Part shown: one piece after another, positions 2,158 to 6,974 of the stretch
Layout: the number at the start of each line of letters is the position of its first letter
Position numbering within the stretch: position 1 is the stretch's first letter
Source of the DNA: Synergistaceae bacterium
GTDB taxonomy: Bacteria; Synergistota; Synergistia; Synergistales; Aminobacteriaceae
Direction: 5' to 3'
Assembly: GCA_017470785.1 (NCBI GenBank)
Contig: JAFUXM010000161.1
Coordinates: forward strand, 1-45,298
Length of the DNA stretch: 45,298 nt
Notes under the pieces: generated by a model
Databases searched by the model: none
What the model was told of the DNA's origin: nothing
What the model saw: only the letters and a program-made list of their open reading frames with translations
Translations under genes and position numbers: made by a program

Positions 2158-3150
2158 ATGCTCACGGTGAACACGGCGGGTAAGTCCGCGAAAGCAGCGG
2201 CGGATTTAACGGCTGAGGCGTTAAAGAAATTTGCAAATCAGAACGAACAGGAAATTCAAGTTATAGTTGAAGATACGATGTCCGCGTTTGAGATCCAAAA
2301 AATTTTGGAAAAATTTGGCTTGAGCGTATCTATACAGGATGACGACGGGCGCATGACATTAACGGGCAGCGTTAAGACAGCAGCGGCTAAAGTTCAAGAC
2401 AGGCAAGAGCCGTTGCAAGAGACAGCGCCAGTGCAGCCTGAAAAATTATTTGAGCCTGAGCAGCAAGCGCCAGTGCAGCCCCAAAATTTATTTAAGCCTG
2501 AGCCTGAGACAGCGCCAGTTCAAGCCGAGCCGGAAAAATTATTTAAGCCTGAGCCAGTGCAAAGCAAGCCGGAAATTTTATTTAAGCCTGAGCCTGAGCA
2601 GCCAGTCAAGCCTCAAAAATTATTTGAGCCTGAGCGAGATAAGCTTGAGCAGGCTGAACGCGAATTTTTTGAACGGGATAATATTAAAGTAGAAGAAGAT
2701 TTTAGAAATAGCAGCGCGATAGCTGATAAAGCAACTGAGAGCAAAGAGATTCAGGAATTGAATTTGAAAGTTAAGCAAGCTATAGCTGATAAAGAGGCCG
2801 GGGCTAAGCATGAGGCCGGCGGCGTGTTTGTGATCATGGGCAGGACGTTAGGGCGCGGCGACGATAAGCTCGGCGGAATTTTGATTAAGGGTTTTCTGGC
2901 CGGCCTTGCAAGGTCTGAGCCTGCGCCGGACTCGATTATATTATTAAACGGCGGCGTGAAGCTTGCGCTGTTTGACTCGTCAACATGCGACCACTTGAAA
3001 GATTTAGAGGCCCGCGGCACGCAGATATTAATCAGCGGCGTCTGCACAAGCCATTTCGGCATAACTGACAGCATCGGCGCAGGCGTTATAGCTAATATTT
3101 ACGAGATAGTCGATGTGATTAATAAAGCTGTCAAGGTAGTCTGCCTGTGA
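2158..3150 (+). CDS. yedF: YedF-type selenium-metabolism protein with degenerate TusA domain
   Basis: Three parts are visible. Residues 1-72 have the TusA fold pattern (VNTAGKSAKAAADLTAEAL, then IQVIVED), but the CPxP active-site motif expected near residues 11-14 is missing, so no sulfur- or selenium-carrying Cys is present there. Residues 73-215 are a charged Pro/Glu-rich linker with five LF[KE]PE repeats. Residues 222-330 are the DsrE-like YedF domain: MGRTLGRGDDKLGG, then a LLNGGVKLAL-type strand and an SGVCTSHFGI segment keeping one Cys. YedF co-occurs with SelD in selenium-using bacteria; its reaction is unknown. A selD gene lies 38 kb downstream. Ordinary YedF proteins are around 200 aa, so the linker explains the 330 aa. 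The gene overlaps the next by 4 bp. GAGAGGAG precedes the ATG. Confidence 0.82.
   Translation: MLTVNTAGKSAKAAADLTAEALKKFANQNEQEIQVIVEDTMSAFEIQKILEKFGLSVSIQDDDGRMTLTGSVKTAAAKVQDRQEPLQETAPVQPEKLFEPEQQAPVQPQNLFKPEPETAPVQAEPEKLFKPEPVQSKPEILFKPEPEQPVKPQKLFEPERDKLEQAEREFFERDNIKVEEDFRNSSAIADKATESKEIQELNLKVKQAIADKEAGAKHEAGGVFVIMGRTLGRGDDKLGGILIKGFLAGLARSEPAPDSIILLNGGVKLALFDSSTCDHLKDLEARGTQILISGVCTSHFGITDSIGAGVIANIYEIVDVINKAVKVVCL
2425..2640 (+). repeat. Five degenerate LF[KE]PE protein repeats inside yedF
   Basis: The DNA encodes LFEPE, LFKPE, LFKPE, LFKPE and LFEPE at residues 97, 111, 128, 141 and 155, separated by Pro/Gln/Glu-rich spacers of 13-17 residues per period. Short LFxPE motifs in a disordered linker look like peptide ligands for a partner protein, but that is inference. 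Confidence 0.8.
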
Positions 3151-3725
3151 AATATAATTTAAATTTAGCATTAAGCTATGTCTGGGAAATTTTCACAGGC
3201 GTGCGCGACGCAGGCGACATAGTTAAACACTCTGAAATCCAGTTTAAGTTCAAGGCATATGCAGCGTTAGTTATAAAATTAATAAGGCTGTTAGTTATAC
3301 TTGCGCTGATATTCGGGGGCTGCTTGGCTGTATTTTTTTATTATGAAAATTTTATTAAAGTTCATGAGCAAAATTTAAAGATTAAAGCCAAGGCAGATAG
3401 ATCACAGGAGCAAGAACTGCAGGCGCTGGCCGAGAAAGTATTAAAGTTTCGTGCTGACGCTCATATCTTAGCTGACAGGATAAATCTATTTGACAGCGAG
3501 CCCGAGGCTGAAGCTAATGATAATTTGCCTGAGATGAGCGTTAAGGCAAAAATTTTAAGCAATAATAAACGCAAGAGCTTAATTATATTAAGCGTGAATA
3601 AAAATAATTTTAGGCTGCGGACTGGCGAGGCTTTCACGTTTGACGGAATGCAGGGGCGTGTTATCAGCATTAATCGCGACAGCGTGTTAATTAACTTTAA
3701 CGGCAGAGAAATAGAAATTAAATAA
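3147..3725 (+). CDS. Single-pass membrane protein, unknown, coupled to yedF
   Basis: This 192-aa protein is not recognised. Residues 1-43 would be cytoplasmic, a hydrophobic helix spans about 45-66, a coiled-coil-like stretch covers 70-115, and the C-terminus (140-192) reads as beta strands ending in VLINFNGREIEIK. That order (cytoplasmic stub, one membrane helix, small periplasmic beta domain with a GEAF...GRVISI turn) resembles inner-membrane partners of secretins such as GspC or PilP, and a secretin gene lies 1.6 kb downstream; this is only a structural guess. The GTG start overlaps the yedF stop (GTGA), so translation is coupled. Confidence 0.7.
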   Translation: MKYNLNLALSYVWEIFTGVRDAGDIVKHSEIQFKFKAYAALVIKLIRLLVILALIFGGCLAVFFYYENFIKVHEQNLKIKAKADRSQEQELQALAEKVLKFRADAHILADRINLFDSEPEAEANDNLPEMSVKAKILSNNKRKSLIILSVNKNNFRLRTGEAFTFDGMQGRVISINRDSVLINFNGREIEIK

Positions 3726-3750: not shown

Positions 3751-4659
3751 TTGGCCGGAAAGAAATTTAATATTAAAAAATACAAAGAGCTTGAGAAAAA
3801 ATATAAAAAGCTTGAGGCGACTTTGCCTTATGATAAGCGCATTGAAAATGTCGATATTTCGAATGACTTTATGTTTTGCTATATCATGCAGGATAAAGAG
3901 ATATTTGCCGAGGTCTTGAGCAGGATTTTGCCGGATATTCAAATCGGGCGGGTTGAGTTATGCGAGTATCAAAAGACTATGCGCGAGTATATCGACATGC
4001 AGGGCGTGCGTTTTGACGTTTACGCCAAGACGAGCTTAAACGGCGAGATGAAAATTTTTGATGTTGAGATGCAGAACGCTAACGAGGACAGTCTGCCGAA
4101 GCGGGCTCGGTATTATCATTCTATAATGACGTCTAATATTATGAATCGTGCTAAAATAAAAAATTATAAATATCTGCCGTGCGAGTTTGTAATTTTTATT
4201 TGCAAATTTGATTTATTTAAACGGGGCAAATATATTTACGAATTTGAAAATTTGTGTATAGACGATAAGGATTTGAGTTTAGGCGACGACACGCATACGA
4301 TATTTGTAAACGCTGCCGGTTCAATCGGCGAGATTAGCCCTAAGCTCAAAAATTTTTTAGATTTTGTTTTGGGCAAGACGTCTAACGATCCGTTTATCAC
4401 GGAGCTTGAGGACAGGATAGTACTTGCTAAGCAAAGACCTGAATGGAGGATGGATTACATGAAGTTATTAATGCGCGACAGTTTGAATTTTGAAGCAGGG
4501 CTAGCAGAAGGGGAGAAGCAGGGTATTGTTAAGGGTACTCTCGGCGAGAAATTTGCTACGGCTAAGAGAATGCTGAGCTTGAACTTTAAACTTTCTGAAA
4601 TTATGGAAGCGACGCAGTTATCACTTAATGATTTAAATTCTCTCTTGCAGCAGGCATAG
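3751..4659 (+). CDS. Rpn-family PD-(D/E)XK nuclease (recombination-promoting nuclease / 'transposase' family)
   Basis: A 302-aa protein with a Lys-rich N-terminus, then the family core: ISNDFMFCYIMQD (36-48), VRFDVYA with Asp89, and FDVEMQ with Asp104, Glu106 and Gln108, forming the PD-(D/E)XK active site, then RARYYHS (118-124). Rpn proteins are Mg-dependent DNA nucleases; in E. coli they are growth-toxic, take part in phage defence, and are held in check by a small protein translated from an internal start in the same gene. The C-terminal module (237-302) begins with an internal ATG behind a strong Shine-Dalgarno, and three more copies of that module follow. The start is TTG, 9 nt after AGGAGG. 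No transposon ends are seen, so 'transposase' is probably a misnomer. Confidence 0.88.
   Translation: MAGKKFNIKKYKELEKKYKKLEATLPYDKRIENVDISNDFMFCYIMQDKEIFAEVLSRILPDIQIGRVELCEYQKTMREYIDMQGVRFDVYAKTSLNGEMKIFDVEMQNANEDSLPKRARYYHSIMTSNIMNRAKIKNYKYLPCEFVIFICKFDLFKRGKYIYEFENLCIDDKDLSLGDDTHTIFVNAAGSIGEISPKLKNFLDFVLGKTSNDPFITELEDRIVLAKQRPEWRMDYMKLLMRDSLNFEAGLAEGEKQGIVKGTLGEKFATAKRMLSLNFKLSEIMEATQLSLNDLNSLLQQA
4459..4659 (+). CDS. Predicted intragenic small Rpn product (antitoxin-like), same frame as the nuclease
   Basis: Within the nuclease gene, GGAGG at 4445-4449 stands 9 nt before an in-frame ATG (4459), giving a 66-aa product that begins MKLLMRDSLNF and ends ...DLNSLLQQA. The site is as good as those of real gene starts in this window. 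In E. coli, comparable internal starts in rpn genes yield RpnS proteins that bind and inhibit the full-length nuclease. The three downstream copies begin at exactly this methionine, which independently supports it as a functional start. Expression is not shown. Confidence 0.6.
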   Translation: MKLLMRDSLNFEAGLAEGEKQGIVKGTLGEKFATAKRMLSLNFKLSEIMEATQLSLNDLNSLLQQA

Positions 4660-4663
4660 GATT

Positions 4664-4840
4664 ATGAAATTATTAATGCGCGACAGTTTGAATTTTGAAG
4701 CAGGCGAGCGGCATGGTACTCTCAGCGAGAAATTTGCCACGGCTAAACGAATGCTGAGCTTGAACTTTACACTGTCTGAAATTATGGAAGCAACGCAGTT
4801 ATCTCTTAATGATTTAAATTCGCTCGTGCTGCAGGCATAG
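4664..4840 (+). CDS. Rpn C-terminal module, tandem copy 2 (58 aa)
   Basis: A free-standing ORF that repeats the C-terminal module of the upstream nuclease: MKLLMRDSLNFEAG, a variable middle (ERHGTLSEKF), then ATAKRMLSLNF and a conserved end ...LNDLNSLVLQA. It starts 4 nt after the nuclease stop (TAG-GATT-ATG) with no strong Shine-Dalgarno, so it would be read by reinitiation. Length differences from the parent are multiples of three, which argues that it is translated. Likely an extra small partner or inhibitor of the nuclease, or a recombination donor for its C-terminus. Confidence 0.6.
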   Translation: MKLLMRDSLNFEAGERHGTLSEKFATAKRMLSLNFTLSEIMEATQLSLNDLNSLVLQA

Positions 4841-4844
4841 GATT

Positions 4845-5033
4845 ATGAAATTATTAATGCGGGACAGTTTGAATTTTGAAGCAGGGCGAGCAGAAGGGGA
4901 GAAGCAGGGTATTATTAAAGCAAATCTTGCCACGGCTAAACGAATGTTGAGCTTGGGCTTTAAAATTTCTGAGATTATGGAAACAACGCAGTTATCACTT
5001 AATGATTTAAATTCTCTTTTGCAGCAGGCGTAG
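4845..5033 (+). CDS. Rpn C-terminal module, tandem copy 3 (62 aa)
   Basis: Closest to the parent module in its middle part (RAEGEKQGI is shared with the nuclease), then IKANLATAKRML and the conserved end ...LNDLNSLLQQA. It begins 4 nt after the copy 2 stop with the same TAG-GATT-ATG junction, so reinitiation is likely. The ORF is intact. Confidence 0.6.
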   Translation: MKLLMRDSLNFEAGRAEGEKQGIIKANLATAKRMLSLGFKISEIMETTQLSLNDLNSLLQQA

Positions 5034-5039
5034 GCTTAC

Positions 5040-5207
5040 ATGAAATTATTAATGCGGGACAGTTTGAATTTTGAAGCAGGCGCACTCAAAGAGAAATTTG
5101 CCACGGCTAAACGGATGTTGAGTTCTGGCTTTAAAATGCCTGAAATTATGGAAGCAACGCAGCTCTCACTCGAGGATTTAAATTCTCTCGTGCATTTGCA
5201 GGCGTAA
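5040..5207 (+). CDS. Rpn C-terminal module, tandem copy 4 (55 aa)
   Basis: The shortest copy: MKLLMRDSLNFEAG is kept, the middle shrinks to ALKEKF, and the end diverges slightly (LEDLNSLVHLQA). It starts 6 nt after the copy 3 stop. It is intact and ends with TAA just before an A+T-rich hairpin that may terminate the array. Confidence 0.57.
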   Translation: MKLLMRDSLNFEAGALKEKFATAKRMLSSGFKMPEIMEATQLSLEDLNSLVHLQA

Positions 5208-5333: not shown

Positions 5334-6974
5334 ATGAGACGCGCTGGCTTTGTGACTTTCAAGCTTGTTATATTTGCAGCAATAATTATATTTATGCTTG
5401 CGTCTCAGAGTGCTGCAGCAGCGCCGTTAAAGCAAAATAAAATATTAAATAATTTAAATATCTATCAGCTGGGCGAAGCTGATGTAGTAATTAGCTTTAA
5501 CGGCAAAGACCTGCCAGAGCCGGAAATTATTTTGAGCGATGATCTTTTGCAGTTTAAATTTATAAATTCTGAAAATAAATTAAATTATAAAAATTATGAT
5601 TTAAATGCAGTGCCTTTAGTTTTAGATTATGAAATAAAAAATTTAAGCGGCGATGTGATAATAAATATAGCGACGCAGAGGCCGATGCAAATTCATAGCC
5701 GTAATCGCAGTACTTTCAGGTTTGAGCTTAAAGGCAATAATAAAAATAATATTAAGCTGTCAAAGCCGGTTAAAGATAATTTAAATCTTGAAGTTATCTT
5801 TCCCAAGAACGAGAAAATTAGTTTTGAAGCAGATGATATATCACTGCGAGAGGTCTTCTCGCTGTTCGTAAAGTATATTAATAAAAACGTAATTATAGAC
5901 GCATCGTTTCCGGTTAAAAATATAACTATGAGTTTGCATAACATGCCGCTCTATGACGCAATGCGTAATTTTATGGCGGCTAATAATATTGCGTTTAGAT
6001 TATTAGATAATAATACAGTGGTGTTTGGAAGTGCGGACGGGCTGTCGCATTTCTCAGGCAGTGAGAAGTTAGCTAAAATTAATATAGCTTACGCTGACTT
6101 AAAAGAGCTTCAGGAGCGTTTAATAAAGCTGTTGAATTTAAACGGCGAGAAAATTATAGTTGATAATAGAACGCGCGATTTATATATTAAGACTAATCCT
6201 GAGAAATTAGAGCTTGCTAAAAATTTAATTCAGAAATTGGACAGTCCAGGCCGGCAAGTTAAAATTTACGCAAGAATATTTGAATTTTCTGATAATTATA
6301 ATAAAGAACTTGAGAGTGCGCTTGACGCAGTTTATAAACACTGGCAGTTTAACTTCACGCCTCAAAGCGGCGGCAGAGTCAGATATTTATACAGCAATCC
6401 TGAAAGTTTAATTAACGGTGTATTAAGGCAGTTTGATATGACGTTTAGAAGTCTTGAGAATAAAGGCCGCGGCAGGACGATTGCCAGTCCTTCGGTGACT
6501 GCGATAAGCGGCCAAGAGGCAAAGATTAGCCTGACTGAAGAGTATCCGTATATAAAAGAACATGACGAAGCGGGCAACACTGAATGGGGAACGCAGACCG
6601 TCGGCCCGCAGCTTTTAATAACGCCGCGCATAGGCCGCGATAATTTAATCAGCATGAAGATAGATATTCAAACTGGAGACGTAATCGAGATGATAACGGG
6701 CAGCAACGGTGAGCAAATGCCAAGGACGTCAAAGCGCAGCGTCGCTACTAATTTACTTGTGCATGACGGCGAGCCATTTGTGATAGGCGGCCTGTTTCAC
6801 GAGAGCGAAGCGACAAGACGCGCCGGTATCCCAGTATTAAGTGACACGCCTTTATTAGGCAGCTTATTTAAATATAAATTTCAAGAATATAATAAAAATC
6901 AGGCCGTGATATTAGTCGTACCGTATATTATAGACACTCAGGACTCACCAATCGAGTTTGAAATTATAGAATAA
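5334..6974 (+). CDS. Secretin (PilQ/GspD-type outer-membrane pore)
   Basis: A 546-aa secretin that would form the outer-membrane ring of a type IV pilus or type II secretion machine. A signal peptide spans about 1-29 (cleavage in SAAAA|PLK). An AMIN-like beta domain covers about 40-135, an STN domain 160-215 (ISFEADDISLREVF), and an N1-type domain 245-300. The C-terminal secretin domain includes IASPSVTAISGQ, VATNLLVHDGEPFVIGGL and the hallmark GIPVLSDTPLLGSLF. It stands alone here; the only possible partner is the membrane protein at 3147-3725. GGGGAAA precedes the ATG. PilQ-like is favoured because of the AMIN domain. Confidence 0.88.
   Translation: MRRAGFVTFKLVIFAAIIIFMLASQSAAAAPLKQNKILNNLNIYQLGEADVVISFNGKDLPEPEIILSDDLLQFKFINSENKLNYKNYDLNAVPLVLDYEIKNLSGDVIINIATQRPMQIHSRNRSTFRFELKGNNKNNIKLSKPVKDNLNLEVIFPKNEKISFEADDISLREVFSLFVKYINKNVIIDASFPVKNITMSLHNMPLYDAMRNFMAANNIAFRLLDNNTVVFGSADGLSHFSGSEKLAKINIAYADLKELQERLIKLLNLNGEKIIVDNRTRDLYIKTNPEKLELAKNLIQKLDSPGRQVKIYARIFEFSDNYNKELESALDAVYKHWQFNFTPQSGGRVRYLYSNPESLINGVLRQFDMTFRSLENKGRGRTIASPSVTAISGQEAKISLTEEYPYIKEHDEAGNTEWGTQTVGPQLLITPRIGRDNLISMKIDIQTGDVIEMITGSNGEQMPRTSKRSVATNLLVHDGEPFVIGGLFHESEATRRAGIPVLSDTPLLGSLFKYKFQEYNKNQAVILVVPYIIDTQDSPIEFEIIE

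Follow-up and report, generated by a model that had tools for sequence, protein, structure and literature searches.

The window, the whole stretch of 45,298 nucleotides analysed here from a Synergistaceae bacterium (contig JAFUXM010000161.1), carries an rpn nuclease gene followed by three stand-alone copies of its own carboxyl-terminal RpnS module. Stand-alone rpnS genes downstream of a nuclease gene are already known from E. coli (PMC10327210). What is new is the row of three graded copies, each a whole number of four-residue steps off the resident module, an arrangement found nowhere else in the collections searched. It suggests that the extra copies do not just add to the supply of one inhibitor. 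The reading that is preferred here, with a probability of roughly 45%, is that the array may hold legacy or reserve antitoxins that are also donors of nuclease carboxyl termini. The array is a natural test of a question left over from the work on Rpn proteins, namely how a nuclease with its antitoxin in its own carboxyl terminus changes this terminus without self-killing.

Anatomy of the rpn locus

The features of the locus are listed in Table 1. The array lies between a 192-aa ORF (3147-3725) and a secretin gene. Among the relatives examined, insertion of rpn beside the secretin gene is found in the window and in RGIG3311 (probably G127), the nearest relative, only; it is absent next to the matched secretin gene in 29 other relatives. 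The ORFs and alignment scores bear out the preliminary description of an rpn gene followed by three open module copies. The copies share the start sequence MKLLMRDSLNFEAG, and gaps of 4, 4 and 6 nt separate copies 1, 2 and 3, respectively, from the stop codon before them. Their similarity to the 66-aa module is not due to chance because the local DNA alignment scores of 227, 256 and 115 (copies 1-3) are far above the maximum reached by shuffled sequences (25-33). Misassembly of identical repeats is an unlikely origin since the longest exact stretch common to any two module copies has only 41 nt; the tails are 10-20% apart. The first 14 residues are identical across the module and its copies. 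Note that the DNA of these 14 codons (4459-4500 and the corresponding region of the copies) is nearly identical in all four modules, synonymous sites included, which may reflect either a constraint on the initiation region or local gene conversion.

Table 1. Features of the rpn array and the adjacent secretin gene (positions in the window).
Feature	Position	Strand	Evidence
rpn gene (RpnL), PD-(D/E)XK nuclease, 302 aa, TTG start	3751..4659	+	ORF list, profile matches, invariant catalytic positions, AF2 model
Internal Shine-Dalgarno (SD) TGGAGG, 9 nt 5' of the internal ATG	4444..4449	+	sequence; AGG codon use
RpnS module inside rpn, 66 aa, with three additional four-residue repeats (LAEG EKQG IVKG)	4459..4659	+	
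RpnS copy 1, stand-alone, 58 aa, one repeat; sister to the current nuclease C-terminus	4664..4840	+	
RpnS copy 2, stand-alone, 62 aa, two repeats by length	4845..5033	+	
RpnS copy 3, stand-alone, 55 aa, no extra repeat; tail closest to RGIG3311	5040..5207	+	
Secretin gene	5334..6974	+	PF00263 E=2e-36

The nuclease matches TIGR01784 (E=2e-38) and PF12784 (E=2e-12), both above cut-off, in agreement with its initial assignment to the Rpn family; the small ORFs match the family at its carboxyl-terminal end only. The active-site residues D89, E106 and Q108 recognized in the preliminary description are invariant across 28 relatives, as are D39 and R118. Compared by motif and spacing, the five positions resemble the catalytic residues D11, D63, E82, Q84 and R94 of E. 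coli RpnA (PMC5350276). The AF2 model of the nuclease (mean pLDDT 82.6) features a long helix (residues 230-276) that spans the internal start (residue 237), with two short helices after it. Searches of the PDB yielded no match by sequence and no significant match by fold; the best relevant one, a Shedu nuclease domain (E=0.02), is given no weight here. Two distant relatives of the nuclease are found in viral contigs. PADLOC gave no match, which does not count against a role in phage defence.

Several features point to internal initiation at the RpnS module. The Arg codon of the WRxx(Y/F) motif is AGG in 30 of 30 relatives, AGG representing 23% of the Arg codons in these genes, and the start position after the motif is ATG, GTG or TTG in 29 of the 30. 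Of 96 genes, 63 have a strong SD paired with an in-frame start at 50-110 codons from the gene end; two neighbouring control zones give 5 and 1 such genes. These counts come from related genes and are thus not independent events. The preference for AGG suggests that internal initiation at RpnS is under selection, which is consistent with the intragenic RpnS-type module proposed initially. For E. coli and C. difficile there is experimental proof of such initiation (Zhong et al. 2023, PMC10327210). As judged from these sequence features the locus fits the Rpn (RpnL/RpnS) toxin-antitoxin type, in which RpnL would be inhibited by the intragenic RpnS. Copies 1-3 have no strong SD of their own; their translation would require coupling to the stop codon 4-6 nt upstream.

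Four-residue steps, descent and distribution of the copies

The region between FEAG and KRM has 21 residues in the resident nuclease and 13, 17 and 9 residues in copies 1, 2 and 3, respectively. The syntenic gene of RGIG3311 has 33 residues between the equivalent anchors YEAG and KRM. All these lengths differ by multiples of four residues. The indels were described before as multiples of three nucleotides, which holds and can be refined: those in the middle of the modules are multiples of twelve, and apart from these there is a single indel, an additional codon close to the end of copy 3. The four-residue quantum is the step found in RpnS helix 1 by Zhong et al. (PMC10327210). In RpnC the addition of one repeat to RpnS or to RpnL abolishes inhibition, which is restored when the repeat is added to both (Zhong 2023, PMC10327210). 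Should this matching rule apply to the window locus, the resident nuclease would be inhibited by none of the three free copies. Some resident/stand-alone pairs of Synergistota are equal in length (L121, L115, L102). A stand-alone copy at another locus (L106, G005:C37) is seven residues off its resident, which is not a multiple of four; its helix lacks glycine repeats.

The tree of the module tails (~102 columns, rooted on RGIG3311) has the topology (RGIG3311,(c3,(c2,(c1,L)))) with bootstraps of 99 and 99. The order of descent of the modules is thus their order on the DNA. Repeated duplication of the nuclease-linked module would yield such an order, with the oldest tail most distal. The anatomy of the locus, its origin by duplication and the four-residue steps are well supported. 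The dN/dS ratios are 0.13-0.17 between the resident module and the copies and 0.21-0.35 between copies, none near 1. The ratio pooled over other Synergistota resident/stand-alone pairs with at least 60% identity is 0.27. A value of ~0.5-0.6 is estimated for neutral free copies paired with a strongly constrained resident. The synonymous excess is clear for the pairs with the resident and for copies 1 and 3; it is marginal for copies 1 and 2 and for copies 2 and 3 under a high transition bias, the neutrality tests between copies giving p values of 0.03-0.19 at kappa 4. Gene conversion with a constrained resident could mimic constraint on the copies, which on these sequence comparisons look moderately constrained. 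Decay of the copies is disfavoured by the synonymous excess and by the lack of stops, none of which was found in any of the detected copies.

Of 152 distinct rpn genes of Synergistota whose downstream DNA could be read, 29 have downstream copies of the carboxyl terminus, counted with masking. This result, together with the stand-alone rpnS genes reported by Zhong 2023 (PMC10327210), leaves the initial statement, that no described expansion of this kind was known, unsupported. The search for arrays suggested at that stage gave three separate downstream ORFs at the window locus only. Two matches were obtained at two other loci: at L105 (G035:C3) a 123-aa ORF downstream of rpn (locus 3237-3608) is a fusion of two RpnS-like modules, and at L032 one ORF is matched in two pieces. 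The syntenic rpn of RGIG3311 has no downstream copy, and a second rpn of this genome is followed by a single stand-alone copy that has one repeat less than the resident module. A candidate role of the window copies as antitoxins of further Rpn proteins encoded in their own genome was rejected: the other rpn examined closely (C88, L005) has a carboxyl terminus of a different type. The number of rpn candidates at first look is very high in two Synergistota genomes, G156 (93) and G112 (80).

Possible roles of the free copies

Stand-alone rpnS genes are often unmatched to the resident module in repeat number, including at the rpnE locus of E. coli K-12, where the effect of the mismatch is directly testable: RpnE has GWQEG-MHEQ and YpaA GWQEG-KLEG-LHEQ, a difference of one repeat. 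RpnE is annotated as inactive. The two-copy rpnE loci of E. coli compared (n=22) display 10 distinct length combinations, all multiples of four apart and none matched. Random pairing of the E. coli lengths gives ~0.55 expected matches and a probability of 0.54 of obtaining none, which leaves a test of avoidance without power. Because random pairing also gives few matches, the safe statement is that repeat-number matching is not maintained in two-copy rpnE loci of E. coli, the mismatch not being shown to be selected. The main text of Zhong 2023 (PMC10327210) does not discuss the match in repeat number between the downstream copy and the resident.

The nuclease tails of the two-copy rpnE loci end in IPN(C/G/S)(H/Y) while the stand-alone tails end in AANNH (AAKNH once). 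In four of the single-copy rpnE strains sampled it is the nuclease itself that carries the AANNH tail. Among these nucleases the one of L192 has a repeat array like that of a two-copy nuclease and the one of L188 an array like that of a stand-alone copy. The AANNH tail on a single-copy nuclease is the product expected from deletion between two copies, so that a stand-alone copy can become the carboxyl terminus of the nuclease. The role of donor put forward in the preliminary description thus stays a live idea, in view of the tail swap in E. coli.

We propose that the rpnS module of an Rpn toxin-antitoxin locus was tandem-duplicated in successive rounds, each of which would have pushed an older carboxyl terminus one step further downstream, leaving behind three stand-alone RpnS genes. 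The nuclease-linked and the free copies would have changed by whole four-residue helix repeats, to reach 3 in the resident and 1, 2 and 0 in the copies. The resident nuclease would be restrained by its intragenic RpnS, which always matches. The free copies, translated by coupling from the upstream stop codon, would be mainly antitoxins of other specificities, directed to earlier or alternative forms of the nuclease carboxyl terminus. They may serve also as recombination donors, and the nuclease could then change its carboxyl terminus without killing the cell. A more demanding version, which we regard as possible but doubtful, is that the array is a working antitoxin ladder of graded helix length in which each free RpnS neutralises a nuclease form with a different repeat number. 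The lineage would then be protected from its nuclease in past as well as alternative forms, and the carboxyl terminus of the nuclease could be switched among these when phage pressure demands.

The common module start with its 14 identical residues, the constraint on the copies and the polycistronic layout would also be expected if the free copies inhibited the resident nuclease and raised the RpnS:RpnL ratio, and the Synergistota pairs of equal length are in line with such an effect. An increase of dose, proposed in the preliminary description, is nevertheless unlikely: all three copies are off the resident in repeat number, a mismatch that abolishes inhibition in RpnC, and none of the 22 E. 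coli two-copy loci has a matched pair. It seems somewhat less improbable, though still rather doubtful, that the copies are functionless by-products of tandem duplication at a recombination-prone carboxyl terminus, kept only for a time. The instability of the repeats, a downstream copy often gained or lost in E. coli and sporadically distributed in Synergistota, and the weak SD of the window copies all agree with a transient state, which accounts poorly for the lack of stops in the detected copies, for the synonymous excess in both the window copies and the pooled set, and for the detection of the YpaA protein in E. coli (Zhong 2023, PMC10327210).

The copies could finally matter only as DNA, as silent cassettes that replace the nuclease carboxyl terminus by deletion or gene conversion. 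The identical 5' stretches of the copies supply homology for such exchange, and a stand-alone tail is indeed found on the nuclease of single-copy E. coli rpnE strains. A pure donor need not, however, retain a start codon, a stop codon and a tight coupling spacing, and ypaA is translated (Zhong 2023, PMC10327210); this is the least probable of the roles considered.

Comparison with known systems

The stand-alone rpnS genes that follow rpnE (ypaA) and rpnC have each arisen independently from the gene upstream, and loss or fusion of stand-alone copies was described in E. coli (Zhong 2023, PMC10327210). In most records seen ypaA (L067 3817-4002, NC_000913; other E. coli) is annotated as a pseudogene or as amino-terminally partial; despite this annotation the ORF is complete, of the RpnS type, and preceded by an SD of its own. 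A tandem ypaA pair at rpnE was not found in 5,426 E. coli genomes with a junction query, whose single high-coverage match is an ordinary two-copy locus.

The rpnE-ypaA and rpnC-rpnCS loci of E. coli (PMC10327210) have the same organization as the window locus, a nuclease gene followed within a few nucleotides by a stand-alone copy of its own RpnS, and share with it the four-residue repeat variation. As in these loci, the window copies cluster with the resident module, that is, with their own upstream rpnS. The E. coli loci differ in having one downstream copy with its own SD, whereas the window has three copies with three repeat numbers and no strong SD. The single-copy loci of Synergistota (such as L224, L138, L005, L120 and L091) resemble the window in that the copy is downstream, on the same strand, open and short, and often at least one four-residue repeat off the resident; they have one copy instead of three. 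The esaG work (PMC9484751) describes strings associated with type VII secretion toxins in which tandem, non-identical inhibitor paralogues face one polymorphic nuclease and recombine among themselves, features that liken them to the window array. The immunity gene esaG is distinct from the gene of the nuclease, which is secreted, while RpnS corresponds to part of a nuclease gene whose product is intracellular. The likeness is one of arrangement and implies no homology.
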